Source: Meiothermus cerbereus DSM 11376 (GTDB taxonomy: Bacteria > Deinococcota > Deinococci > Deinococcales > Thermaceae). From it: DNA of 35,376 bases. The position numbers were made by a program, and so were the translations under genes. Shown in pieces: positions 22,171 through 35,376 of this stretch. Location of the stretch: NCBI RefSeq assembly GCF_000620065.1, contig NZ_JHVI01000032.1, positions 1 through 35,376 on the forward strand, given 5' to 3'. The stretch's first letter is position 1. The number at the start of each line of letters is the position of its first letter. The notes under the pieces are model-generated. The model was not told the DNA's origin. It ran no database searches and saw only the letters and a program-made list of their open reading frames with translations.

Positions 22171-23415
22171 TCAGAAGTTTAGCTTAAAGCCTGCCCGGGC
22201 TCCCAGGCCAACGTTGCCGCCGCTCTCGAAGCGGGGATTGCCTTCCACGAAGAGGCCCAGGGGGCCAAACAGGTTGAGGTCGAGCCCCACCGCGGCGGTG
22301 CCGTAGATGGGGTTGGCCAGGGCCGGCAGGAAGCGGGCCCCCACACCCACATAGGGGCTAATCAACCCACTGCCGAAGTGGCGCATCAGGTAGGCCTCGA
22401 GGCCCAGGGCATTGGTGCTGAGGTTGTAGTCCAGGCCGGCCCGCAGGCCAAAGCCCAGGAACACCTCGCGTACGCCCACCATCCCGCTGATGTTCAGGTT
22501 GCTGCTGTCGAAGATGCCACCAGCCGGCTGAGGGATGATGCCCAGGGCAGCGCCCGCGCCAAAGTAGAGGTTGCGAGTCGGAGGCGCCACGGGTGCCACC
22601 GGTCGTACTTCAGGTTGGGGCTGCGGTTGCGGTTGAGGCTGGGGTTGGGGCGCGGGCTGTTGGGCCTGCTGGCGCAGCTCGTTGACCTGGCCTTGCAAGG
22701 TGGTGACCTGGTTGCTCAGGGCGCGCACCTGCTCTTCCAGGGCGGCTACGCGGGCGGCATCGGGACGGTTGCGAATCTGTTCCTCCAAAGTGGCGATGCG
22801 GCGCTCGAGGGCCACTGCATCCTGCGGGGCGGTAGGGGCGGCGGGGGCCTGGCTCAGGCGCTGAATCTGCTGCTCCAAGACCGCAATACGGGCCTGGAGT
22901 TCGGCTGGGGTGGGCCCCGCCGGTTGGGCCGGGGCCTGAGCCAGTCGCTGGATCTGCTGTTCGAGGGCCGCCAGGCGCTCCTGCAGGGCGGCTACGCGCT
23001 GGCTGGTCTCGATGGCCTGCCTGACCTCGGCCTCGAGCGCGGCCAGCTTACCGGCCTGATCCTGGCTGGTGCGCTCGAGGGCAGCAAAGCGTTGCTGAAG
23101 TTGTTGAAGCTCGGGGGCTACCTCCTGTGCCCCCCGCTCAACGGCCAGACGGCACTCGGGGCGGGCGTTCTCGAGGCGGTTGGTCTGGTAGAGTCGGAAG
23201 AAAATCAGGGCGGCCTGGTAGCGGGTCAGGTTCTGGTTGCCCCGGAAGGTGGCATCGGGGAAACCCTCGATCAGGCCGCACTGCACCGCAAACTCCACGG
23301 CCTGGCGGGCCCAGTGCCCAGCCGGAATATCCCGAAACTGGGTCTGGGCGCTGGCAAATACTCCAAAAAATGTAGCCAGCACAAAACTGATAATGGCTAA
23401 ACGGCTTTTTAGCAT
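22171..23415 (-). CDS. SLH-domain, coiled-coil outer-membrane beta-barrel protein
   Basis: The 414-residue protein has a signal peptide (MLKSRLAIISFVLATFFGVFASA). One S-layer homology domain follows at about 25-75 (FRDIPAGHWARQAVEFAVQCGLIEGFPDATFRGNQNLTRYQAALIF). A long coiled coil extends to about residue 260, with heptads such as LAALEQQIQRLAQAP repeated, then a Pro-Gln repeat linker. The last 115 residues look like a membrane beta-barrel, with GVGARF, AAVGLDLNLF and a C-terminal FKLNF that fits an outer-membrane sorting signal. Deinococcus-Thermus bacteria use such SLH-porin proteins to tie the outer membrane to pyruvylated cell-wall polymer. AGGAGG lies before ATG 23415. A hairpin lies in its leader at 23440-23457. 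It diverges from the NlpC/P60 gene. Confidence 0.85.
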   Translation of the reverse strand: MLKSRLAIISFVLATFFGVFASAQTQFRDIPAGHWARQAVEFAVQCGLIEGFPDATFRGNQNLTRYQAALIFFRLYQTNRLENARPECRLAVERGAQEVAPELQQLQQRFAALERTSQDQAGKLAALEAEVRQAIETSQRVAALQERLAALEQQIQRLAQAPAQPAGPTPAELQARIAVLEQQIQRLSQAPAAPTAPQDAVALERRIATLEEQIRNRPDAARVAALEEQVRALSNQVTTLQGQVNELRQQAQQPAPQPQPQPQPQPQPEVRPVAPVAPPTRNLYFGAGAALGIIPQPAGGIFDSSNLNISGMVGVREVFLGFGLRAGLDYNLSTNALGLEAYLMRHFGSGLISPYVGVGARFLPALANPIYGTAAVGLDLNLFGPLGLFVEGNPRFESGGNVGLGARAGFKLNF

Positions 23416-23439
23416 ACAAACCTCCTTCTGGGCTTTTGA

Positions 23440-23457
23440 AGCCAAGGGTGCTTGGCT
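23440..23457 (-). other. Leader hairpin of the SLH-barrel gene
   Basis: AGCCAAG (23440-23446) and CTTGGCT (23451-23457) form a perfect seven-base-pair stem with a four-base loop, 24 nt upstream of the start codon. A further AGCCAAGG copy lies at 23476-23483. It could regulate translation of this abundant envelope protein. Confidence 0.45.
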
Positions 23458-23644
23458 CCGTTTCCTACGCTACGCAGCCAAGGTGAGGGCTTGCGCTGGC
23501 TGCGCTATAACTGAAATTGGGAACCCTATCACCCATTTCATGATTGGGGCGGCGGATGCAGGTGAAAAATTTGCTGGGGCCGCCTTCCTGCACCGCGCAC
23601 AACAACGACTCCCTGTGTGCGGCTCCGTTCATGAAGGCAAAATG

Positions 23645-24595
23645 ATGAAAATTCGACGTATACTTACGTTTAGTATGCGTATAATTGCTGTGTTGCCCTG
23701 GCTAATTGCCCTGGTGCTGGCCCAGGCTGGCCCCACCTATACGGTGCAGCGCGGCGACACCCTGTACTCGATTGCCAAGCGCCACGATACCACCGTGGAA
23801 ATTTTGATGCGGCTCAATGGCCTGAACGACGCCACCCTGAGCGTGGGGCAGGTGCTCCAGTTGCCACCCCAGACGGTACAGCACACTGTCCAGCGCGGCG
23901 ATACACTTTTTTCTATTGCCCGGCGCTATGGCTCCACGGTGCAGGCCATCCAGCAAGAAAACAACCTCGAGGGCACCACCCTTTCGCTTGGACAGGTGCT
24001 GCGGATTCCCCAGGTGGGCGTGGTTACTCCCAGCAACCCACCGGCTGCACCTCTCAATCCGTCCCCTACCAACCCCAATCCCGCCCCACCCGCGGGCGCT
24101 TCGGCCAATCTGGTTAACTCGACCCCGCTTCCCAGTCCCACCCCACCCCAGCCTGCACCCGAGCCCGCTCCGCCACCCCAGCCCAGCCAACCCCTCGACA
24201 CCGACTACGACCCCACCCACCCCCTGATTCTGGTGGTGCTCAAATACCTGGGCCTGCCCTATGTGTTTGGGGCCAACTCCGACCGCGCGGTGGACTGCTC
24301 GGCTTTTGTGCAGCAGGTCTTTGCCGAGGTGGGTATCAAGCTGCCCCGTACCAGCCGCGAGCAATGGGCCGCCTTCAGCACCGTACAAGGGGCCATGCGC
24401 CAGGGCGATCTGGTGTTTTTTAGCTTTGGGGGCCGCCAGATTGACCACGTGGGCATCTACCTGGGCCGCGGCGTGTTTGCCCACGCCAACAGCTACGGCA
24501 GCCGGGTGGTGATCGAAAGCCTGGACAGCCCCTTCTACAAGCGGGTCTACCGGGGGGCCAAGCGGGTGGAGGCCCTGTCGGCCCAGCAACCCTGA
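23645..24595 (+). CDS. LysM-NlpC/P60 peptidoglycan endopeptidase
   Basis: The 316-residue secreted enzyme has an N-terminal signal/anchor segment (IIAVLPWLIALVLAQA). Two LysM domains bind peptidoglycan: YTVQRGDTLYSIAKRHDTTV and HTVQRGDTLFSIARRYGSTV. A Pro-rich linker covers about residues 130-190, and an NlpC/P60 domain completes the protein. The catalytic Cys is in VDCSAFVQQVF and His in IDHVGIYLG, with a third polar residue in FAHANSYGS. It should cut stem peptides of the wall between D-Glu and the diamino acid. ATG 23645 has GAAGG 7 nt upstream; ATG 23642 in the same frame is equally possible, and longer frames lack support. The gene diverges from the SLH-barrel gene over about 230 nt, so both may share regulation in envelope maintenance. 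Confidence 0.9.
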   Translation: MKIRRILTFSMRIIAVLPWLIALVLAQAGPTYTVQRGDTLYSIAKRHDTTVEILMRLNGLNDATLSVGQVLQLPPQTVQHTVQRGDTLFSIARRYGSTVQAIQQENNLEGTTLSLGQVLRIPQVGVVTPSNPPAAPLNPSPTNPNPAPPAGASANLVNSTPLPSPTPPQPAPEPAPPPQPSQPLDTDYDPTHPLILVVLKYLGLPYVFGANSDRAVDCSAFVQQVFAEVGIKLPRTSREQWAAFSTVQGAMRQGDLVFFSFGGRQIDHVGIYLGRGVFAHANSYGSRVVIESLDSPFYKRVYRGAKRVEALSAQQP

Positions 24596-24870: not shown

Positions 24871-25884
24871 ATGAGCTGGGAGCGTGCCCACCATAAAAAG
24901 TCGCTGCGTTTGCTGGAAGCTCGAGACCTGCTGGCAGCCAGACCCTACACGGCCCAGGAGCTAGGCGATGCGCTAGGGGTAAGTAAGCGGACGGCCTTGC
25001 GCTTGCTGGAGGATCTGCAAGCCATCCAGGTAGACAAAGAGGGGCGCTCGCCCCGGTATCAGCTTCTGCAAAGCCAGGAGCTAAGCCCCATAGAAGCCCT
25101 GATTACGCATAGCGCTTTGCGGATGCTCTACCACCACACCCCCGGCTATGAGCCCACCTACCTATCGGCCCTCAAAAAACTGGCCCTGCGGCTGCCCTCC
25201 CCCGCCCAGGAACTGGCGCTCAAAAGCACCGAAGACCTCGAGCGTCGCACCCTCCAGCAGCGGGATGAGGGATTGGCTATGGCAATGGTGGCCGAGGCCT
25301 GGTTTAAACGCCAGTTAATCGAGTTCGACTACCTTAAGCCGGGCGGCTCGGGCAGGCCGCGCAAAAGCGTACTCGAGGTCTACTTCCTGGAGATTTCCCG
25401 TACCAATCTGGGTATGTATGTGGTGGGTTATGAGCGCAACTACCGTAAGGCCCTGCGTACCTACAAGCTGAGCCGAATGCGCCGGGTCAGGATCATTGGT
25501 GAGCCTGGCGCCTACACCATCCCCCAGGACTTCGACCCCCGCCAATACCTCTCCAATGCCTGGGGGGTGATCGGGAGCAGCGGCGGTTCGCCGGTGGAAG
25601 TCCGGCTGCGAATCCGCCCCGAGGCTGCTTACCGCATTCTGGAGGGCGGCTACCCCAACCTGCGCATTGCCTCGAGGCTCCCAGATGGGGGTCTCGAGGT
25701 TTGTATTACTGTGGGAACCAACAACGACAACTTCCCGCTCGAGCTGCTCTCGTGGGTGCAAAGCTGGGGGTCGCGCATTGAGGTTCTGGAGCCAGCCAAC
25801 CTGCGGCAGCGGTGGCTTTCGGAGGCACAGGAGGTGGCAGCGCTGGCTAAAAAGGACGAGCTGGAAGACCATAACGATTCGTGA
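24871..25884 (+). CDS. WYL-domain transcriptional regulator of the cas operon
   Basis: The 337-residue protein has an N-terminal winged helix-turn-helix (residues about 8-60, YTAQELGDALGVSKRTALRLLEDLQAI). A central linker leads to a WYL domain near residues 140-215, seen in KRQLIEFDYLKPGG and LGMYVVGYERNYRKALRTYKLSRMRRV. The C-terminal WCX-like extension is PVEVRLRIRPEAAYRILEG and LLSWVQSWGSRIEVLEP. WYL domains bind ligands, possibly nucleotides or nucleic-acid pieces, and WYL regulators are known partners of CRISPR-Cas and other defence loci. ATG 24871 has AAAGG 7 nt upstream. cas3 starts 35 nt after its stop, so it is probably the first gene of the operon and may regulate itself and all cas genes. 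Activator or repressor action cannot be decided. Confidence 0.87.
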   Translation: MSWERAHHKKSLRLLEARDLLAARPYTAQELGDALGVSKRTALRLLEDLQAIQVDKEGRSPRYQLLQSQELSPIEALITHSALRMLYHHTPGYEPTYLSALKKLALRLPSPAQELALKSTEDLERRTLQQRDEGLAMAMVAEAWFKRQLIEFDYLKPGGSGRPRKSVLEVYFLEISRTNLGMYVVGYERNYRKALRTYKLSRMRRVRIIGEPGAYTIPQDFDPRQYLSNAWGVIGSSGGSPVEVRLRIRPEAAYRILEGGYPNLRIASRLPDGGLEVCITVGTNNDNFPLELLSWVQSWGSRIEVLEPANLRQRWLSEAQEVAALAKKDELEDHNDS

Positions 25885-25919
25885 CAGGATTTGTCGCGCT
25901 GAGGTGGGAGGCTATGAAC

Positions 25920-28640
25920 ATGGGTTTATCGGACAGGGCAAAAGCGCTATGGGCGAAAAGTGACCGAGAGAAGAACGACGGTTCCTGGCATCCGCTTATC
26001 GCTCATCTGCTCGATGTGGCTGCCAGCGCCGAGGTGATCCTGGAGCGCGAACCCCCCAAGACGCTCGAGCTATACGCTGCGGACTTGCAGCTCGACAGCC
26101 AGCAGGCCAAAGCCTGGATTTGTGCCCTGGCGGGGCTACACGACCTGGGCAAGGCCAGCCCGGCCTTCCAGCAGAAGTGGGATGTGGGCAAAGAGCGGGT
26201 GTGGAAAAGTGGCCTTTCTTGGACAAACAATCCCACACCCCCACCGGACGACGTTTCGCACAGCCTCATCAGTGAGGCGGTGCTGCCCAATCTCCTAGTG
26301 GAGCGAGGCTGGAAGCGTAGGGCTGCTGAGAACGTCGCGGCGGCGGTGGGCGCGCACCACGGCTTCCGGGCTACGAGGAACGACCTGGATGAAGCTTCGA
26401 CCGAAAAAGAGAAAGGCAATGCGGATTGGGACAGCGTGCGCAGCGAGCTTTTCAATGCCGTGCTCAAGGTACTCCGGGTAGGGGAGGCCCCTAAGGTTTG
26501 CATCTATAAAGGCGCCGCCTTCGAGCGACTGGCGGGCCTCACCAGCTTCGCCGACTGGATCGGCTCGAGCCTCGACTTCCACCCACTTGACGACGACCTG
26601 GGTAGGTATTACCGGCAGGCCAGAGTGCGAGCGGCGCAGAGGCTCGACAGCATCGGTTGGTTCGAGCGGGAAGCCCTGATGCCCGAGATGCAAAGCCTGG
26701 AAGCGGTGTTTGCTTACCTGGGCAAACCCGGCCAGCCGTTCAAAGCCCGCCCGCTGCAGGCTGCTCTCGAGCGCATGTTGGATCATGTGAGCGCTCCCGC
26801 CTTGTTCCTGATCGAGGCTCCAATGGGCGAAGGCAAGACCGAGGCCGCATTCTATGCCCATCTGCGCCTTCAGGCGGCCAACGGTCATCGGGGGATGTAC
26901 GTGGCCCTGCCCACCCAGGCCACCGGCAACCTGATGTTTGAGCGAACCAAGGAGTTTCTGGGCCTCTACGGGGCGTCCCGCAAGCTCGACCTGCAACTTC
27001 TGCACGGGGCCAGCGAGCTGGTGGAGGCTTACCAGAAGATACTTGTGCGCCCCAACACGCCTGAAGGGGGAGAGGAAGGGGTAGAGGCCCAGGTCTGGTT
27101 CTCCCACCGCAAGCGCGGTCTGCTCTCGGAGTACGCCGTGGGCACGGTAGATCAGGCCCTCTTGGGCATCCTGCCCACCAAGCACCAGTTTGTGCGGCTG
27201 TGGGGCCTGGGCAACCGGGTGGTGGTGTTGGACGAGGTGCACGCCTACGACACCTACACCGGCAGCCTGATCGAGACCCTGGTGCGCTGGCTTTGGGCTT
27301 TGGACTCGTCGGTTGTGCTGATGAGCGCAACGCTGCCAAAGGCCAAGCGGGAGGCTTTGCTAAAGGCGTTCGGCGCAGGGGAGATACCCGCAGCAGAAGA
27401 TAAGCCCTACCCGCGCATCACCCGCGTCGTGAAGGGCAACGCTAAACCTGTCGTGGAAACCTTTGAGGCGAGGAAACAGCCTACTCTGGTGCTAGAGGCC
27501 TTGCCGCTTGACCTCGAGGACATCGCTAATAAAGCGCTCGAGCAGGCCAAAGAGGGTGGTTGCGTGGCCTGCATCGTCAACACCGTACAGCGGGCGCAGG
27601 ACTTATACCTGAAACTGGTAGGCAACTCTGATGGCGTGGAGGTCTGCTTGTTCCACGCCCGCTTCCCGCTCGAGGATCGCTTGCGGCTCGAGCGCTGGGT
27701 CAAGGTCAAGTTTGGCAAGCATAGCGCCCTGGGTCGACGCAGACCGCACAGGGCTATCCTGGTTGCTACCCAGGTGGTGGAGCAATCCCTCGACCTCGAC
27801 TTCGATGTCATGTTCACCGACCTGGCCCCGGTGGATCTGGTGCTGCAACGCGCTGGGCGGTTGCACCGTCACCAGCGTGACCCCAGGCAGCGCCACGCCC
27901 ACACCACGCCCGTGCTGTGGGTGGCGGGCCTAGAGTGCGAAGGGGTGCCCGATTTCGGCTCTGCCGAGCAGATTTACGAGCGCTACGTCCTGCTGCGAAG
28001 CTGGCTGGCCCTGAAAAACCGTGGCCAGATTGAGCTTCCGGACGACATTGATCGTCTGGTACAGGAGGTCTACAGCGACCCTGCGCCCCAGGGGCTTTCG
28101 CACGAATGGCTCGAGGCTCTAAAGCAGGCCTGCAACCGCATGCACCGGCGGGACTCCAGGGATCTGGACGAGGCGGCCTACGCCCCCTTCGGCCTGCCCG
28201 ACGAGACCAACTGGCTCGACCCCCAGGAGTTCCCCAAGCTGCCCGACGACGAACCCAACCCCGACGACGACCCCAGCCCCACCAAAACCCGCAAAGGCCG
28301 CCCCAGCGCCACGGTGGTGCTGCTCCACAGGGTCAACGGTCAGCTCTGCCTAGACGCCGCGGGCCAGCATCCGGTCAAACTGGACAGCAAGCTCGAGCTG
28401 GCCGAGGGCAAGCGCATCTTCGCCCGCTCGGTCAAGCTCAGCCGCCACGAACTGGTGCAAGGCGACTTCGAGGCGCTGAAGGCCCACCGGAAGGCCCAGG
28501 GCCTCTCTGCCCAGCTCTGGAGCGAAACCCCGCTGCTGGCCCACGCTCATCCGGTGGTGCTCGAGGGGGGCAGGGCCGTACTGGGGGGACTTGAACTCGA
28601 GCTGCACCCTGCGCTTGGAGTGATTTACAGGAGTCAATAG
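25920..28640 (+). CDS. cas3: CRISPR-associated nuclease-helicase Cas3 (type I-E)
   Basis: The 906-residue effector degrades DNA bound by Cascade. The HD nuclease part shows H24 and H29 (WHPLIAHLLD), H74-D75 (LHDLGK) and AVGAHHG. The SF2 helicase shows Walker A MGEGKT (302-307), DEVH (438-441), SATLP, ATQVVEQSLDLDFD and the arginine finger motif QRAGR (643-647). All catalytic residues seem intact. A Asp/Pro-rich linker (DDEPNPDDDPSPTKTRKG) precedes the C-terminal domain. ATG 25920 is preferred because GGGAGG lies 8 nt upstream; ATG 25914 and GTG 25881 are also in frame. The gene follows the WYL regulator and precedes cse1 by 13 nt. Confidence 0.96.
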   Translation: MGLSDRAKALWAKSDREKNDGSWHPLIAHLLDVAASAEVILEREPPKTLELYAADLQLDSQQAKAWICALAGLHDLGKASPAFQQKWDVGKERVWKSGLSWTNNPTPPPDDVSHSLISEAVLPNLLVERGWKRRAAENVAAAVGAHHGFRATRNDLDEASTEKEKGNADWDSVRSELFNAVLKVLRVGEAPKVCIYKGAAFERLAGLTSFADWIGSSLDFHPLDDDLGRYYRQARVRAAQRLDSIGWFEREALMPEMQSLEAVFAYLGKPGQPFKARPLQAALERMLDHVSAPALFLIEAPMGEGKTEAAFYAHLRLQAANGHRGMYVALPTQATGNLMFERTKEFLGLYGASRKLDLQLLHGASELVEAYQKILVRPNTPEGGEEGVEAQVWFSHRKRGLLSEYAVGTVDQALLGILPTKHQFVRLWGLGNRVVVLDEVHAYDTYTGSLIETLVRWLWALDSSVVLMSATLPKAKREALLKAFGAGEIPAAEDKPYPRITRVVKGNAKPVVETFEARKQPTLVLEALPLDLEDIANKALEQAKEGGCVACIVNTVQRAQDLYLKLVGNSDGVEVCLFHARFPLEDRLRLERWVKVKFGKHSALGRRRPHRAILVATQVVEQSLDLDFDVMFTDLAPVDLVLQRAGRLHRHQRDPRQRHAHTTPVLWVAGLECEGVPDFGSAEQIYERYVLLRSWLALKNRGQIELPDDIDRLVQEVYSDPAPQGLSHEWLEALKQACNRMHRRDSRDLDEAAYAPFGLPDETNWLDPQEFPKLPDDEPNPDDDPSPTKTRKGRPSATVVLLHRVNGQLCLDAAGQHPVKLDSKLELAEGKRIFARSVKLSRHELVQGDFEALKAHRKAQGLSAQLWSETPLLAHAHPVVLEGGRAVLGGLELELHPALGVIYRSQ

Positions 28641-28653
28641 TAGGAGGTATGTC

Positions 28654-30198
28654 TTGCCCACGTTCAATCTAATAACCCAACCCTGGATTCCCGCGCGACA
28701 GCAGGGTGCGCTGAGACTCGTCAGCCTCGAGCAAGCCCTGCTCGAAGCCCGCCGGTTCGAGCGCATCGAAGACCCCAGCCCATTGGTGACGGTGGCCCTG
28801 CACCGCTTGCTCCTGGCGATCCTGCACCGGGCGCTGGAGGGCCCGGGCGATGCTTATGAGGCGGCAGAATGGTTCAAAAACGGCTTTGACCAGGGGAAGA
28901 TCCGCGCTTATCTGGTCAGGTACCACGACCGTTTCGACCTGTTCCACCCCGAGCGGCCCTTCTACCAGGTGCCCGACTTCACCCTCGAGCGCTCCAGCCG
29001 CTCCTGGACGGTGCTGGCCCCCGAACTCAACTCCGACAACAACAAGGTGCTCTTCGACCACACCATCACCTCGCGGCCTCGCCCACTCCAGCCGGATGAG
29101 GCCGCCCGCCTACTGGTGGCCAACCAGACCTTTGCCCTTTCTGCGGGCAAAAGCGTGCTGTGCCACACCGCCACCGCACCGGTCGCCACCGCGGCCCTGG
29201 CCCTGATGCTGGGCGAAAACCTTCACCAGACGCTGTGCCTGAACTTGGTTGCCTATCAAAAGCACGAACTCGAGCGCGACTTCGCTACCTGGGAAAAAGA
29301 GCCCCTGCGGGTTGCCGACCTGGCGGACTGCGAGCGGGCAAAGGCCAGCGCCAAGGGCATCGTTCACCGCTACACCTGGCTCTCGCGCGCGGTTCGCTTC
29401 GAGCCCGAAGAAGAAAGCGGTCAGACAGTTGTGCGCTGGATCGCCTACGCCTCGGGGGTTCGCTACGAGGAGAGCCAGGTTCGCCGCGACCCGATGGTGG
29501 CGGTTCGCCCTGATCCCAAAGACCCCACCAAGGAGCGTCCCCTCGGTTTCAGCGAAGGTAGGGCCTTGTGGCGGGACTTCGCCGCCCTGCTGCCCAAGCC
29601 CGGCTCGGCCCAGGGTCTGGAGGTGGCTAACCATGCCTGCAACGTTTACGACAAGCTGCACTGCCATTTCGAGAAGCGGGGTATCCCCGTGATGGTGGCG
29701 GGGCAGGCCAACGATCAGGCCAAGATCGAACTCTGGCGTGGCGAGACGTACCGCCTGCCTGAGGCCATTTTGGGCAAAGCCGATCTACACGTTTTCGTCA
29801 AAAAGTGCCTGGATCAGGCCGAAGAGATGGGAAAGGCCTTGAATGGGGCCGCTCGAGCCCTGGCCACCGAACTCCTGACCATGGGGGATCGGCAGCCTCA
29901 TAAAGACGACGTGAGCAGGCTGGTTCAGAGCTTTCCTCACCAGGCGGCTTACTGGTCGGCGCTCGAAGGCCAGTTCGCCGACTGGATACTGCGGCTCGGC
30001 CCCGATTTCCTAGAGCAGCAGGCCCGGCTCGAGCAAGACTGGCAGCAAACCCTCAAACGCGAAGCCCTGCGGGCCTGGGAACTCACCGCTCTGGTCGCTG
30101 GAAATGACGCCCGGGCGCTAAGAGCCATTTACAAGAGCGAGGGCATTTTGCTCTCCCGTTTCTACCGAAAGGAGGCAGTGGGTGCAAAAGGAAATTAG
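28654..30198 (+). CDS. cse1: Cascade large subunit Cse1/Cas8e (CasA)
   Basis: The 514-residue protein begins MPTFNLITQPWIPARQQGALRLVSLEQAL, the standard Cse1 opening. The subunit recognises the PAM and recruits Cas3. Further family segments are HPERPFYQVPDF, LLVANQTFALSAGKSV and the C-terminal four-helix bundle region (LEQDWQQTLKREALRAWELTA). The start codon is TTG: AGGAGG at 28642-28647 lies 6 nt before it, and the only nearby ATG (28649) is out of frame. A rare start may set a low level of this one-copy subunit. The stop overlaps the cse2 start by 17 nt. Confidence 0.95.
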   Translation: MPTFNLITQPWIPARQQGALRLVSLEQALLEARRFERIEDPSPLVTVALHRLLLAILHRALEGPGDAYEAAEWFKNGFDQGKIRAYLVRYHDRFDLFHPERPFYQVPDFTLERSSRSWTVLAPELNSDNNKVLFDHTITSRPRPLQPDEAARLLVANQTFALSAGKSVLCHTATAPVATAALALMLGENLHQTLCLNLVAYQKHELERDFATWEKEPLRVADLADCERAKASAKGIVHRYTWLSRAVRFEPEEESGQTVVRWIAYASGVRYEESQVRRDPMVAVRPDPKDPTKERPLGFSEGRALWRDFAALLPKPGSAQGLEVANHACNVYDKLHCHFEKRGIPVMVAGQANDQAKIELWRGETYRLPEAILGKADLHVFVKKCLDQAEEMGKALNGAARALATELLTMGDRQPHKDDVSRLVQSFPHQAAYWSALEGQFADWILRLGPDFLEQQARLEQDWQQTLKREALRAWELTALVAGNDARALRAIYKSEGILLSRFYRKEAVGAKGN

Positions 30199-30778
30199 TA
30201 GAGAACAGGCTTTTGTGCAGTACCTGCGAAAGCACAGTGAGTCCGCCGACCTGGCGCGGATGCGCCGTGCCCTAGCTGATCCGGGAGCGGAGGTGATCCC
30301 GTTGGTCGAGGGATTCTTGGCGCGTATTCAGGACGATTACGAGGCTCGCTGGGAGCGGATTTGTTACTACCTGGTGGCGGGGTTGTGGGCGAGCGCGGTG
30401 TCCTCGTCGGAGCTGGAGCGCTTTCGCCGGCAGCCCGAGGAAGAACCTGAAGTGAGCCAGGGCGACCAAAGCAACGTGAACAAAGGCTACCGTCGCACAC
30501 TGGGCCACGCCATCGCCCAGCTTTACCTCGCCCGTGGCCAGTCCAAAAGCATCGAGCAGCGCTTCGTCGCCTTGCTTGATGCCGATGAGGAACAGCTCCC
30601 ATACCGGATGCGCCAGATGGTGCGGCTGCTCAAGAGCGAGGAAGGCATCCCCATCTACTGGTCGGAACTCTTGCGTGACCTGCTGGCTTGGGACTACGAG
30701 CACAGGCCGGTGCAGCAGAAGTGGGCCAGGGCTTTTTACCGCACTGTGGCAAAAGAAACCCAAGGAGGAGAAGAATGA
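30182..30778 (+). CDS. cse2: Cascade small subunit Cse2 (CasB)
   Basis: The 198-residue helical protein forms the Cascade belly dimer that holds the non-target strand and crRNA backbone. Family features are ADLARMRRALADP near residue 22 and the Arg-rich RRTLGHAIAQLYLARGQ and LPYRMRQMVRLLKS segments, which suit nucleic-acid contact. The start is GTG 30182, 6 nt after GGAGG and inside the end of cse1, so translation is coupled. Its TGA overlaps the ATG of the next gene (ATGA), a DUF2939-like gene that is not a normal member of type I-E operons. Length is usual for the family. Confidence 0.93.
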   Translation: MQKEISREQAFVQYLRKHSESADLARMRRALADPGAEVIPLVEGFLARIQDDYEARWERICYYLVAGLWASAVSSSELERFRRQPEEEPEVSQGDQSNVNKGYRRTLGHAIAQLYLARGQSKSIEQRFVALLDADEEQLPYRMRQMVRLLKSEEGIPIYWSELLRDLLAWDYEHRPVQQKWARAFYRTVAKETQGGEE

Positions 30779-31305
30779 ACACCGAAAGCCAAGAAAAATC
30801 CACCCCCACCCCCAGGAAGCCGCTTCTCTTTTTGGCCGTATTGGCTGGATTGTTACTGCTGCTGGCTTACGCCTGGTTTTCGCCCTACCTGACGCTTAGG
30901 GGCATCCAGCAGTCCATCCAGCGCAACGACCCTTCGGCGCTCGAGCGCTACATTGATTTTCCCCGTGTGCGTGAAAGCCTCAAGGCTGACCTAAACCGCA
31001 TGTTGGTAGAGCAGGCCAGACAAGACCAGACCGGATTTGGGGCGCTGGGTCTGCTGTTTGTGGCCCCGCTGATAGATCAGTTGGTAAGCGTGCTAGTCAC
31101 CCCCGAAGGCCTGGCCAGCATCGGCACCGGCCAGGAGCCGCAGAAGGGCGACCTCGAGGCGGTTCGTGACTGGCGCCTCAAGCGAGAGGGATTTTCCCGA
31201 GCTTTGCTGCATCCCAAAGATAACCCTAGCGAGGGGCTCCTGATGGAACGACGGGGCCTGAACTGGAAAGTTGTACGGCTACAGGTCAACACCCTGCCCA
31301 AATAG
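30775..31305 (+). CDS. DUF2939-like membrane-anchored protein inside the cas operon
   Basis: The 176-residue protein has a polar, Pro/Thr-rich start, one membrane helix at about residues 18-38 ([19 protein letters not shown]), and then a soluble domain. [27 protein letters not shown] and [15 protein letters not shown] match the DUF2939 pattern: a helix pair followed by a Tyr-Val/Ile-Asp-Phe motif. A second hydrophobic segment ([18 protein letters not shown]) may be a helix against or in the membrane. A C-terminal beta strand pair ([20 protein letters not shown]) closes it. The ATG overlaps the cse2 stop, with GGAGGAGAAG before it, and cas7 starts 8 nt after its stop. It is therefore tightly built into the Cascade genes. 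No catalytic motif is seen. Function is unknown; a membrane link for the immune complex is only a hypothesis. Confidence 0.85.
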
Positions 31306-31313
31306 GAGAAAAC

Positions 31314-32516
<1,203 letters not shown>

Positions 32517-32517
32517 G

Positions 32518-33213
32518 ATGCCCACCTTGCTGTTGCGCCTGGCAGGCCCCATGCAGTCCTGGGGCACCAAGAGCCGCTTTGACGAGCGGGACACCGACCT
32601 CACCCCATCCAAGAGTGGGGTGATCGGCCTGCTGTGCGCCGCGATGGGTATAGATCGCGAAGAGCGCGAGCTGGTGCTGCAACTCGCAGACTTACGGATG
32701 GGCGTGCGGATAGATCAGCCGGGGGTGCTGCGCTACGACTACCAGACCGCGCAGAACGTGATCGCCGCCGACGAGTCCAAGATACACCCCACCACCGTCT
32801 CGCGGCGTTACTACCTGGCCGATGCGGTCTTCCTGGTGGGGCTGGAGGGAGAGGATCGGGGGCTGCTCGAGCGCGTTCACCAGTCGCTCAAGAATCCAAT
32901 CTGGCCCATCTTTCTCGGTAGAAAAGGTTATGTGCCAAGTCCGGGTGTATACCTCGAGGACGGCCTGTGCAAGGCGCCTTTGAAAGAAGCGCTGCAATAC
33001 CGCTACCTCGGGCGGCAGTGGCCAAAGGACGACCAGGGAAAAGACCTCGAGTCGGCCAGATTGCCGGTGCTGCTGGAAAATCGGGGTTCAAGTGAAGGCT
33101 CTTTGCGCATGGATCAGCCTCTGGGCTCCTTTGCCGAACGCCGCTTTGGAGCCCGTTTTGTGATTTCTGATGTTGTGGAGGTAAGGCATGTACCTGAGCC
33201 GTCTTTTGCTTGA
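32518..33213 (+). CDS. cas5: Cascade subunit Cas5e (CasD)
   Basis: The 231-residue RAMP protein caps the 5' handle of the crRNA. The start MPTLLLRLAGPMQSWGTKSRFDERDT is the type I-E Cas5 signature, followed by PSKSGVIGLLCAAMG, a Gly-rich loop. DYQTAQNVI, SRRYYLADAVFLVGLEG and LGRKGYVPSPGVYL complete the pattern. I chose ATG 32518, directly after the cas7 stop, rather than the longer frame from 32473 that overlaps cas7. The 3' end overlaps cas6e by 26 nt. Length is usual. Confidence 0.95.
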   Translation: MPTLLLRLAGPMQSWGTKSRFDERDTDLTPSKSGVIGLLCAAMGIDREERELVLQLADLRMGVRIDQPGVLRYDYQTAQNVIAADESKIHPTTVSRRYYLADAVFLVGLEGEDRGLLERVHQSLKNPIWPIFLGRKGYVPSPGVYLEDGLCKAPLKEALQYRYLGRQWPKDDQGKDLESARLPVLLENRGSSEGSLRMDQPLGSFAERRFGARFVISDVVEVRHVPEPSFA

Positions 33214-33841
33214 CCCCCGCTCCAAACAGGCCCGCACCGACCTGGCCAACCCCTACAAAATGCACGCCACCCTTTGCCGTGCTTTTGCCGAACCCGATCA
33301 GACACCGCCGCGCTTTTTGTGGCGGGCGGAGGAGGGAAAAACCCCGACGGTGCTGGTGCAGAGCCTTGAAACGCCGAACTGGGAAAAACTGCTACAGCGC
33401 TTCCCCGGCTACTTCGCCCAAGCGCCCCAGTACAAGCCGGTTCCCCTCGAGCACCTCCAGCCCGGTCAGGTGCTGCGCTTTCGCCTGCGGGCCAACCCCA
33501 CCGTTACCCGCAGGGATCCGCACAACCCCACTAAACGCAAGCGCTACGGCCTCAGGAGCGTAGAAGAGCAGCTCGAGTGGCTTGTGCGGCAGGGCACTAG
33601 CGGCGGGTTCAATGTGCTGGGCGCGATGGTGGTTCAAAGCGAGAAGGTCAGGTTCTACAAGCATTCCAAGAACGCCGATGAGTCCGGGCCTTCGGAGGCC
33701 TTGCCCATTGTGTTGCAGTCGGTGTTGTACGAGGGGCACCTGAAGATTGCCGACCTTGAGGCCTTCCAGCAAACCCTGGCGGCGGGCCTGGGCCACGCCA
33801 AAGCCCTGGGCTTCGGCCTGCTTTCCATTGGCAAGGGATAG
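33188..33841 (+). CDS. cas6e: crRNA-processing endoribonuclease Cas6e (Cse3/CasE)
   Basis: The 217-residue RNase cuts the repeat hairpin to make crRNAs. Active-site Y23 and H26 lie in NPYKMHATLCRAF, at the same numbers as in the Thermus enzyme. Two ferredoxin-like halves end in the Gly-rich loop GLGHAKALGFGLLSIG that grips RNA. RLRANPTVTRRDPHNPTKRKRYGL supplies basic residues for repeat binding. The repeat in the array, with a seven-base-pair stem, is a fitting substrate and would leave the eight-base 5' handle AUGAACCG. The gene begins inside cas5 and ends 2 nt before cas1. Confidence 0.96.
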   Translation: MYLSRLLLDPRSKQARTDLANPYKMHATLCRAFAEPDQTPPRFLWRAEEGKTPTVLVQSLETPNWEKLLQRFPGYFAQAPQYKPVPLEHLQPGQVLRFRLRANPTVTRRDPHNPTKRKRYGLRSVEEQLEWLVRQGTSGGFNVLGAMVVQSEKVRFYKHSKNADESGPSEALPIVLQSVLYEGHLKIADLEAFQQTLAAGLGHAKALGFGLLSIGKG

Positions 33842-33843
33842 CC

Positions 33844-34806
33844 ATGAGGTACGAGACCCGCAACCTGCAAGAGCTGCCCAAGTTCCGCGACGGGCTTTCG
33901 TACCTCTACCTGGAGCATGGCCGCCTCGAGCAGCAAGACCAAGCCGTGGCCTGCTATAGCCAGGAAGGCGTGGTCATGATTCCCGCTGCTGCGCTGGGTG
34001 TGCTGATGCTGGGCCCGGGCACCTCCATTACCCACGCGGCCATACGCCAGCTTGCCAACAACGGCTGCTCGGTGTTTTGGGTAGGAGAGGAGATGGTGCG
34101 CTTTTACGCCAGCGGGATGGGGGAAACCCGCTCCAGCGCCAACCTGATGCGCCAGGTGCGGGCCTGGGCCGACCCAGAAGCCCACCTCGAGGTGGTCAAG
34201 CGGCTCTACCGGCTGCGCTTTGCCGAGCCCCTCTCACCCGAACTGACCCTCGAGCAGATTCGAGGCCTGGAAGGGGTGCGGGTGCGCGACACTTACGCCC
34301 GCTGGAGCCGCGAAACAGGCGTGGAGTGGAAGGGCCGCAACTACGACCGGGGCAACTGGGCGGCTGCCGATCCCATCAACCGGGCGCTTTCCGCCGGGGC
34401 GGCTTGTCTGTATGGCCTGGCCCACGCCGCTATCCTCTCGGCGGGCTACAGCCCGGCCCTGGGTTTCATCCACACCGGCAAGCAGCTTTCGTTTGTTTAT
34501 GACGTAGCCGACATCTACAAAGCCGAGACCCTTATACCTACTGCTTTTCGGGTGGTGGCCGAGTCGGATTCGGGCGTCGAACGCCGGGTGCGCCACACCT
34601 TACGCCAGCAACTCAAGGAAGTGAAGCTCCTGGAGCGCATCGTCTCCGACCTGCATAGCCTCTTCGACGCGCTCGAGACCCCCGACCCCTACGCCGCCGA
34701 CCCTGCGGCCCCAGGTGAGCTGTGGGACCCCGAGGGCCCGGTTCCGGGCGGGATAAGCTATGGTAGTGATCGTTCTGGAGAAGGTGCCGAAGACCCTGAG
34801 GGGTGA
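33844..34806 (+). CDS. cas1: CRISPR adaptation integrase Cas1 (type I-E)
   Basis: The 320-residue protein inserts new spacers together with Cas2. The metal-binding catalytic residues are present: E143 in GLEGVRVRD, H210 in GFIHTGK, and D220/D223 in FVYDVADIYK. They are shifted by two from E141, H208, D218 and D221 of E. coli Cas1. The N-terminal beta domain contains MIPAAALGVLMLGPGTSITHAAI. The C-terminal tail after residue 285 is Pro/Asp/Gly-rich and probably disordered; its last 47 nt overlap the start of cas2. No cas4 is present, as expected for type I-E. Confidence 0.96.
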   Translation: MRYETRNLQELPKFRDGLSYLYLEHGRLEQQDQAVACYSQEGVVMIPAAALGVLMLGPGTSITHAAIRQLANNGCSVFWVGEEMVRFYASGMGETRSSANLMRQVRAWADPEAHLEVVKRLYRLRFAEPLSPELTLEQIRGLEGVRVRDTYARWSRETGVEWKGRNYDRGNWAAADPINRALSAGAACLYGLAHAAILSAGYSPALGFIHTGKQLSFVYDVADIYKAETLIPTAFRVVAESDSGVERRVRHTLRQQLKEVKLLERIVSDLHSLFDALETPDPYAADPAAPGELWDPEGPVPGGISYGSDRSGEGAEDPEG

Positions 34807-35140
34807 GCTTTCACGCTGGATGCTCGAGGTGAGCACGGGCGTGTTTGTGGGCAGCGTTTCGGCACTGGTGCGCGATTTGCTCTGGGAAAAGTGCATTGCC
34901 AAGAAAAGCTCGGGCCGCTGCTGCTTGCTCTACCGCACCAACAACGAACAGGGCTTTGCTATTCGAACCCATGGCGATACCACCCGCACCCTGATAGACT
35001 TTGATGGCCTGACCCTGGTAGCAGTGAAAAATGCCGAATGGGAGCGTATGCATCACAAGCGAAGCAGAAAAAGCAAACCAGGGGCGAATCTTGACAAAGT
35101 AACTCGGGATTCTGACACTTCCGAGGGGTCTAGCAGCTAA
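34760..35140 (+). CDS. cas2: CRISPR adaptation protein Cas2 (type I-E)
   Basis: The protein begins MVVIVLEKVPKTLRGELSRWMLEVSTGVFVG, the usual Cas2e start, with a ferredoxin-like core to about residue 95 (RTLIDFDGLTLVAVKNAEWE). It is the structural partner of Cas1 in spacer integration. At 126 residues it is longer than the E. coli protein of about 94. The extra C-terminal 30 residues are Lys/Ser/Asp-rich (RSRKSKPGANLDKVTRDSDTSEGSSS) and run into the region that should be the array leader, so this part of the DNA may serve both as coding and as leader sequence. The start overlaps cas1 by 47 nt. The stop TAA lies 20 nt before the first repeat. Confidence 0.93.
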   Translation: MVVIVLEKVPKTLRGELSRWMLEVSTGVFVGSVSALVRDLLWEKCIAKKSSGRCCLLYRTNNEQGFAIRTHGDTTRTLIDFDGLTLVAVKNAEWERMHHKRSRKSKPGANLDKVTRDSDTSEGSSS

Positions 35141-35160
35141 TTTTGCTGTTAGAATCAAGT
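35130..35160 (+). promoter_or_regulatory. CRISPR leader: hairpin and extended -10 box
   Basis: CTAGCAGC (35130-35137) pairs with GCTGTTAG (35145-35152) apart from one G-T pair, with a seven-base loop that includes the cas2 stop codon. TG-T-TAGAAT (35147-35155) is an extended -10 box with five of six consensus matches and ends 5 nt before the first repeat. No good -35 box lies 17 nt upstream; a perfect TTGACA at 35091-35096 is too far for this -10. Transcription would begin at about the first base of repeat 1. The cas operon transcript may also run into the array. Confidence 0.5.
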
Positions 35161-35376
35161 GTATTCCCCGCACCCGCGGGGATGAACCGGCACGCAAGGC
35201 GGCTACGCCATTTGTTCGTTGGTATTCCCCGCACCCGCGGGGATGAACCGAAACCCTGTCGCAATGGAAGGCCAAGGTCATCGTATTCCCCGCACCCGCG
35301 GGGATGAACCGGATTCCTCAACGGCGACCGAAGCCCCTCTACCGTATTCCCCGCACCCGCGGGGATGAACCGCTGC
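35161..35376 (+). CRISPR. Type I-E CRISPR array, first four repeats (continues past window)
   Basis: A 29-base repeat occurs at 35161-35189, 35222-35250, 35283-35311 and 35344-35372, identical in all four copies. Spacers at 35190-35221, 35251-35282 and 35312-35343 are each 32 bases; a fourth begins at 35373. The repeat starts GTATTCCCC and ends GATGAACCG. TCCCCGC and GCGGGGA pair around ACCC, the Cas6e hairpin, and the last eight bases ATGAACCG give the crRNA 5' handle. Orientation agrees with cas genes upstream, so the leader end with the newest spacers is shown. I found no match of the spacers elsewhere in this window. Confidence 0.98.

Follow-up and report, generated by a model that had tools for sequence, protein, structure and literature searches.

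A DUF2939 membrane-protein gene between cse2 and cas7 of a type I-E CRISPR operon in Meiothermus cerbereus, and its possible part in defence at the envelope

The stretch of DNA considered here (the window, 35,376 nucleotides of contig NZ_JHVI01000032.1 of Meiothermus cerbereus DSM 11376) carries a complete type I-E CRISPR operon, followed by the beginning of its array. Most of its genes are recognised by Pfam or other profiles (Cas3, E=8e-49; Cse1, 6.5e-112; Cse2, 4.7e-29; Cas7, 5.8e-130; also Cas5, Cas6 and Cas1), while cas2 is assigned by its position and its match to related operons. Lodged between two genes for Cascade subunits is a gene of the DUF2939 family. The features needed to follow the argument are these:

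25881..35140 (cas2 end about 35140), + strand: type I-E operon cas3-cse1-cse2-DUF2939-cas7-cas5-cas6-cas1-cas2
30182..30778, + strand: cse2, the upstream neighbour (PF09485, E=4.7e-29; TIGR02548)
30775..31305, + strand: DUF2939 gene, 176 aa, between cse2 and cas7 (Pfam PF11159, E=9e-29; PADLOC PDC-S55, E=1.7e-32)
30775..30778, + strand: ATGA, where the DUF2939 start codon overlaps the cse2 stop
30850..31119, + strand: part coding for residues 26-115, to which the Pfam DUF2939 profile aligns
31314..32516, + strand: cas7, the downstream neighbour, 8 nt past the DUF2939 stop (PF09344, E=5.8e-130; TIGR01869)
35160..35372, + strand: CRISPR array, four repeats up to the window end, with a 61-nt period

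The first-pass annotation, made from the letters of the window, had the reading frame, its family, its coordinates and its tight coupling right, and its view that the protein is made together with the Cascade subunits is borne out by the start/stop overlap and the 8-nt spacing. An AAGGAGG motif (30762-30768) lies 6 nt upstream of the DUF2939 ATG, and cas7, which begins 8 nt after the TAG, is preceded by a GGAG of its own. The ATGA overlap with cse2 recurs in the other A-type operons, and is replaced by an 11-nt overlap in genome G016. Membership of the family is clear: the protein scores 100.1 bits against PF11159 (curated cut-off 24.8 bits) and shows, after its N-terminal membrane helix, the conserved P...YVDFPxVRxSLK region; residues R58, D61, F62, P63, G161 and W164 are invariant in the two DUF2939 alignments A1 and A2. 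NCBIfam profiles gave no match to it. Further upstream in the window are a gene for a cell-wall hydrolase with LysM and NlpC/P60 domains (23237-24595) and one for a WYL/WCX-domain regulator (24871-25884), which overlaps the cas3 start by 4 nt and finds its best PADLOC match in the N-terminal part of Cas3c models with a WYL region.

The arrangement extends well beyond this strain. Among 50 genomes of the Thermaceae, DUF2939 is present in 27 and Cse2 in 31. The order cse2-DUF2939-cas7 is found in nine of them (G000, G007, G009, G010, G012, G016, G018, G022 and G023), and G015, where DUF2939-cas7 stands at a contig end cut before cse2, is counted as the tenth. These ten genomes span three genera, with 56-96% protein identity, and include records named Meiothermus luteus, M. 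rufus, M. taiwanensis, Calidithermus roseus and C. chliarophilus. An insertion confined to one strain, which the first-pass annotation had named as fatal to its proposal, is thereby ruled out, as is a sequencing artefact. The claim that chance does not account for the gene also stands, for dN/dS between diverged DUF2939 pairs is 0.12-0.26, similar to that of cse1, cse2 and cas7 (two cas5 values involving G018 were left out as apparent computing artefacts); judged from these codon comparisons, the operon gene is under purifying selection. Within this I-E lineage, 10 of 11 operons have the gene, the exception being G002. A Cas protein or Cascade subunit should be present consistently in I-E operons, and many lack this gene: cse2 directly adjoins cas7 in G002, G003, G006, G008 and the Thermus I-E operons. 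The cse2-cas7 junction may accept cargo. In the operon of Calidithermus chliarophilus type (L097, 9105-9356), cse2 is separated from DUF2939 by a second small gene, DUF4177-like (22.5 bits, narrowly below the cut-off of 25), which overlaps both.

All operon copies of DUF2939 form one clade, with an orphan gene of G020 nested inside it and the chromosomal gene of G014 as its sister, and entry into the I-E operon was therefore a single event. The operon gene would descend from a chromosomal DUF2939 gene of the Thermaceae. A phage origin was considered and rejected, with no PHROGs match below E=0.1 and no DUF2939 match in phage records. Since its entry the slot has had an eventful history, visible when the window is compared with G023:

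30482..31456, + strand: exchange tract (end of cse2, DUF2939 gene, start of cas7), about 97% identical in DNA to G023, against about 79% outside

Between these two operons, dS is 0.03 in the DUF2939 gene as against 0.44-0.88 in cse2, cas7, cas5 and cse1, while in G016 the DUF2939 gene is only 62% identical inside an operon that is otherwise 79-88% identical. Read from such alignments, the slot undergoes allele exchange between operons. In G002 the flanks of the exchange tract are shared, the DUF2939 gene is gone and cse2 and cas7 overlap by ATGA, as if the gene had been deleted between ATGAA repeats. Ancestral absence is unlikely, since both tract flanks are shared and G002 groups with G023 in the cas7 tree (support 99/96); on this comparison G002 has lost DUF2939 by clean deletion and retained the rest of the operon.

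This history bears upon the idea of a Cas accessory, the main one of the first-pass annotation: by binding Cascade or Cas3, directly or via its cytosolic tail, the protein would position or control it at the membrane. In favour of this are the translational coupling of the gene to its two Cascade neighbours and a co-occurrence with I-E systems that holds even when the genes are unlinked (see below). Yet related I-E operons do without DUF2939, one operon has dropped it while keeping everything else, and, whether by exchange or by divergence, the alleles in the slot have a history separate from that of the cas genes around them. The predicted layout of the protein weighs in the same direction:

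30823..30879, + strand: predicted membrane anchor codons, residues 17-35 (hydropathy scan; helix 15-49 in the AlphaFold2 model)
30880..31302, + strand: predicted extracytoplasmic domain codons (residues 36-176), four strands following on helices in the AlphaFold2 models, with NTF2-like structure matches

The one clear membrane helix reported at first pass is indeed there, with a mean hydropathy of 2.56, three K/R ahead of it and two among the 15 residues that follow; what had been overlooked is a second hydrophobic segment around residues 88-107, with hydropathy of up to 2.14, modelled as a helix within the predicted domain. Built from 19 and from 40 sequences, the AlphaFold2 models (mean pLDDT 80 and 87, respectively) consist of a long N-terminal helix, more helices and four strands. 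A Foldseek search with them returned nothing significant (E 0.14 or worse), and sequence searches gave no convincing relative of solved structure. In a second structure comparison nearly all top matches were NTF2-like, with Z up to 6.6, which makes this fold a lead for the modelled domain. Matches to MlaC/Ttg2-like and CaMKII-hub structures fell in the same weak band and are not taken as pointing to a function.

As for orientation, K/R outnumber D/E ahead of the anchor in all members examined, and some DUF2939 proteins of Acinetobacter run on into a C-terminal domain that other plasmids encode as a protein of its own, its beginning resembling a signal peptide; the protein therefore looks N-in/C-out, with its globular domain predicted outside the cytoplasm, the stretch at about 88-107 leaving some doubt. 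The predicted cytosolic tail has 16-20 residues in the allele group of the window and just 5 in G016 and G022, so that a conserved Cascade docking site there is unlikely. With the domain predicted outside, tails this short and the clean loss in G002, the placing of Cascade or Cas3 at the membrane finds no support, and we hold a role as Cas accessory to be improbable.

In Thermus-like genomes DUF2939 is not linked to the cas genes and occupies one of two places in the chromosome (gene names read from sequence): 3' of arginase, beside nuo genes, or between prepilin peptidase and nitroreductase. The G014 gene stands behind carboxypeptidase Taq, a neighbour of the latter site. At the arginase/nuo site several Thermus genomes (L083, L086, L088 and L096) carry a copy that is truncated or interrupted by stop codons. 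The unlinked gene tends to go with type I-E: among 27 Thermus genomes, Cse2 is present in 10 of the 11 with an intact gene and in 6 of the 16 without (p=0.0076; p=0.0028 when the two least complete genomes are omitted), while DUF2939 is associated neither with Csm1 of type III-A (p=1.0) nor with Cas8c of type I-C (p=0.37). When pairs are counted on an rpoB tree from which the operon genomes were left out, all informative independent pairs agree in direction, but they are few, and the median p is 0.06 (range 0.016-0.5). The co-occurrence shows in the plain Thermus counts (p 0.003-0.008) and weakens once phylogeny is considered; it is suggestive, not proof.

The check proposed at first pass, a search for DUF2939 between cse2 and cas7, succeeded in the ten Thermaceae genomes and in none of 50 outside loci: at 8 kb, with tblastn of I-E proteins, no DUF2939 stood beside I-E cas genes there. 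None of 27 DUF2939 genomes outside the family has Cse2, and the neighbours of the gene in Xanthomonadaceae and Brevundimonas are conserved core genes (names again read from sequence). The root function of the family is therefore probably something other than defence, and homologues in such surroundings are a further point against a dedicated Cas role.

They also give substance to the main rival explanation, according to which DUF2939 is a passenger, a housekeeping envelope gene relocated by chance and kept for its old function, with the cas operon supplying nothing but expression. Besides those core-gene contexts, it can draw on the fact that operon and chromosomal copies never occur together in the 50 family genomes, a pattern that replacement of one by the other would produce, and on the orphan of G020, which is diverged and intact in a genome without Cse2. 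On the other side, roughly half the family has lost DUF2939 or carries a disrupted copy or none, which argues against an essential housekeeping gene there; its Thermus copies go with I-E and not with III-A or I-C; and it has been recruited independently elsewhere, into type I restriction-modification (R-M) operons and at the edge of another I-E locus. All told, we find the passenger explanation possible and somewhat unlikely.

That second I-E locus is in G019, where a DUF2939 gene of a different clade starts 68 nt beyond the final repeat of an array of five. The locus (L081, 1-1337 and 9317-9590) has an array on each side, and a recognisable cas1-cas2 pair is absent within the 19 kb of sequence around it. 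The G020 orphan, for its part, has a type I-C operon at a distance of about 2 kb. A type I-C Cas3 of 1079 aa, fused to an N-terminal HTH-WYL-WCX regulator (L080, 11995-15234), is encoded some 2 kb downstream of an orphan DUF2939.

The R-M connection comes through PADLOC, where DUF2939 is already known as a defence candidate, PDC-S55 (PDLC05037), in the database of 2023. This model matches residues 20-171 of the window protein over profile positions 7-178 of 182, and it matches every DUF2939 protein tested. PDCs are candidates from a guilt-by-embedding screen, mostly unvalidated (PMC12988326). Embedding of this one in known defence operons is what we find, type I-E in the window and type I R-M in Acinetobacter; our literature search, preprints lying outside its scope, found no paper on DUF2939 or PDC-S55. 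The order hsdM-hsdS-DUF2939-hsdR occurs in eight of nine Acinetobacter plasmids inspected, mostly with one or more small genes before hsdR (for one of the eight, L238, the hsdM row is missing from an incomplete gene table), and on a Polaromonas plasmid DUF2939 stands two genes ahead of a type I restriction gene. Behind DUF2939 in the Acinetobacter plasmids (L235-L243) there is a small protein whose start resembles a signal peptide, fused to DUF2939 in some; L238 has LRAT-family genes at that place instead. The R-M-embedded members of Acinetobacter score highest against PDC-S55, at 221-240 bits versus 111 for the window protein. Common descent of the I-E- and R-M-embedded genes is rejected by an AU test: they are not one clade (p=0.00094), and recruitment into defence operons was therefore independent. 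With the I-E operon, the R-M operons and the edge of the G019 locus, there are thus at least three occasions on which DNA-cleaving defence loci acquired a member of the family.

R-M operons are without Cascade, yet another difficulty for a Cas accessory. Because the family was separately built into such operons in other bacteria, the DUF2939 protein of Meiothermus and its close relatives is probably involved in envelope-level defence against foreign DNA. The link to defence drawn at first pass has accordingly gained ground, through the ten operons, PDC-S55, the type I R-M embedding and the I-E-specific co-occurrence in Thermus. An abortive-infection effector, set loose or activated once invading DNA is engaged by Cascade-Cas3 or HsdR and then damaging the membrane, would fit a single membrane anchor and a place within DNA-cleaving operons of two kinds; we rate it as very improbable nonetheless, for housekeeping-type homologues exist in many genomes, and a single anchor with a folded outer domain bears no pore-like or enzymatic signature in Pfam or structure matches.

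Our tentative preference, given a little less than even chances, is that an envelope protein was recruited as an additional, membrane-level layer of defence at DNA entry and is made with Cascade; its antiphage action we infer. A DUF2939 gene entered the I-E operon once and is now translated with Cascade by way of the start/stop overlap. Its product would be an inner-membrane protein with one N-terminal helix, N-in/C-out, and an NTF2-like domain outside the cytoplasm, topology and fold both being predictions. There it may hinder, slow or sense phage or plasmid DNA entry, while Cascade-Cas3 would destroy the DNA that gets past this step; the protein would thus be a separate layer, not a Cascade subunit. 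Type I-E CRISPR and type I restriction both use helicase-nuclease motors, Cas3 and HsdR. A broader version, in which DUF2939 is a periplasmic, NTF2-like, general envelope partner of DNA-degrading immunity, acting on foreign DNA or its entry and raising the efficiency of cytoplasmic nucleases, seems to us distinctly unlikely.

CRISPR and restriction are viewed as machineries of the cytoplasm. That operons of both kinds should independently have taken up a membrane protein of one family would suggest that nuclease-based immunity includes an envelope step. The Thermaceae offer a natural set in which to test this directly in culturable thermophiles: the gene is present in ten operons, cleanly deleted from that of a close relative, left as an orphan in one genome and unlinked in Thermus. 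To the candidate already listed, the present analysis adds the insertion within Cascade genes, its single origin with allele exchange, the separate recruitment by R-M operons and the I-E-specific co-occurrence.

It remains to set the locus against known systems. Compared with a standard type I-E operon (cas3-cse1-cse2-cas7-cas5-cas6-cas1-cas2), the window has all eight cas genes in the same order, plus an array, and differs by one added non-Cas gene between cse2 and cas7. Most members of PF11159 found outside the Thermaceae are chromosomal, in core contexts without I-E, whereas that of the window is inside an I-E operon. The modelled domain has a helix-plus-sheet arrangement similar to that of membrane-anchored NTF2-like domains (for example the N-terminal domain of PBP2a, TcpC, BB0238), but with Z of only 5-6.6 and identity of about 10%, which permits no functional inference. 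With PDC-S55, finally, the window protein shares a full-protein match and the position of a single gene inside a defence operon; by contrast, the model fits the Acinetobacter type I R-M members far better, and the insertion between Cascade genes is a separate recruitment.
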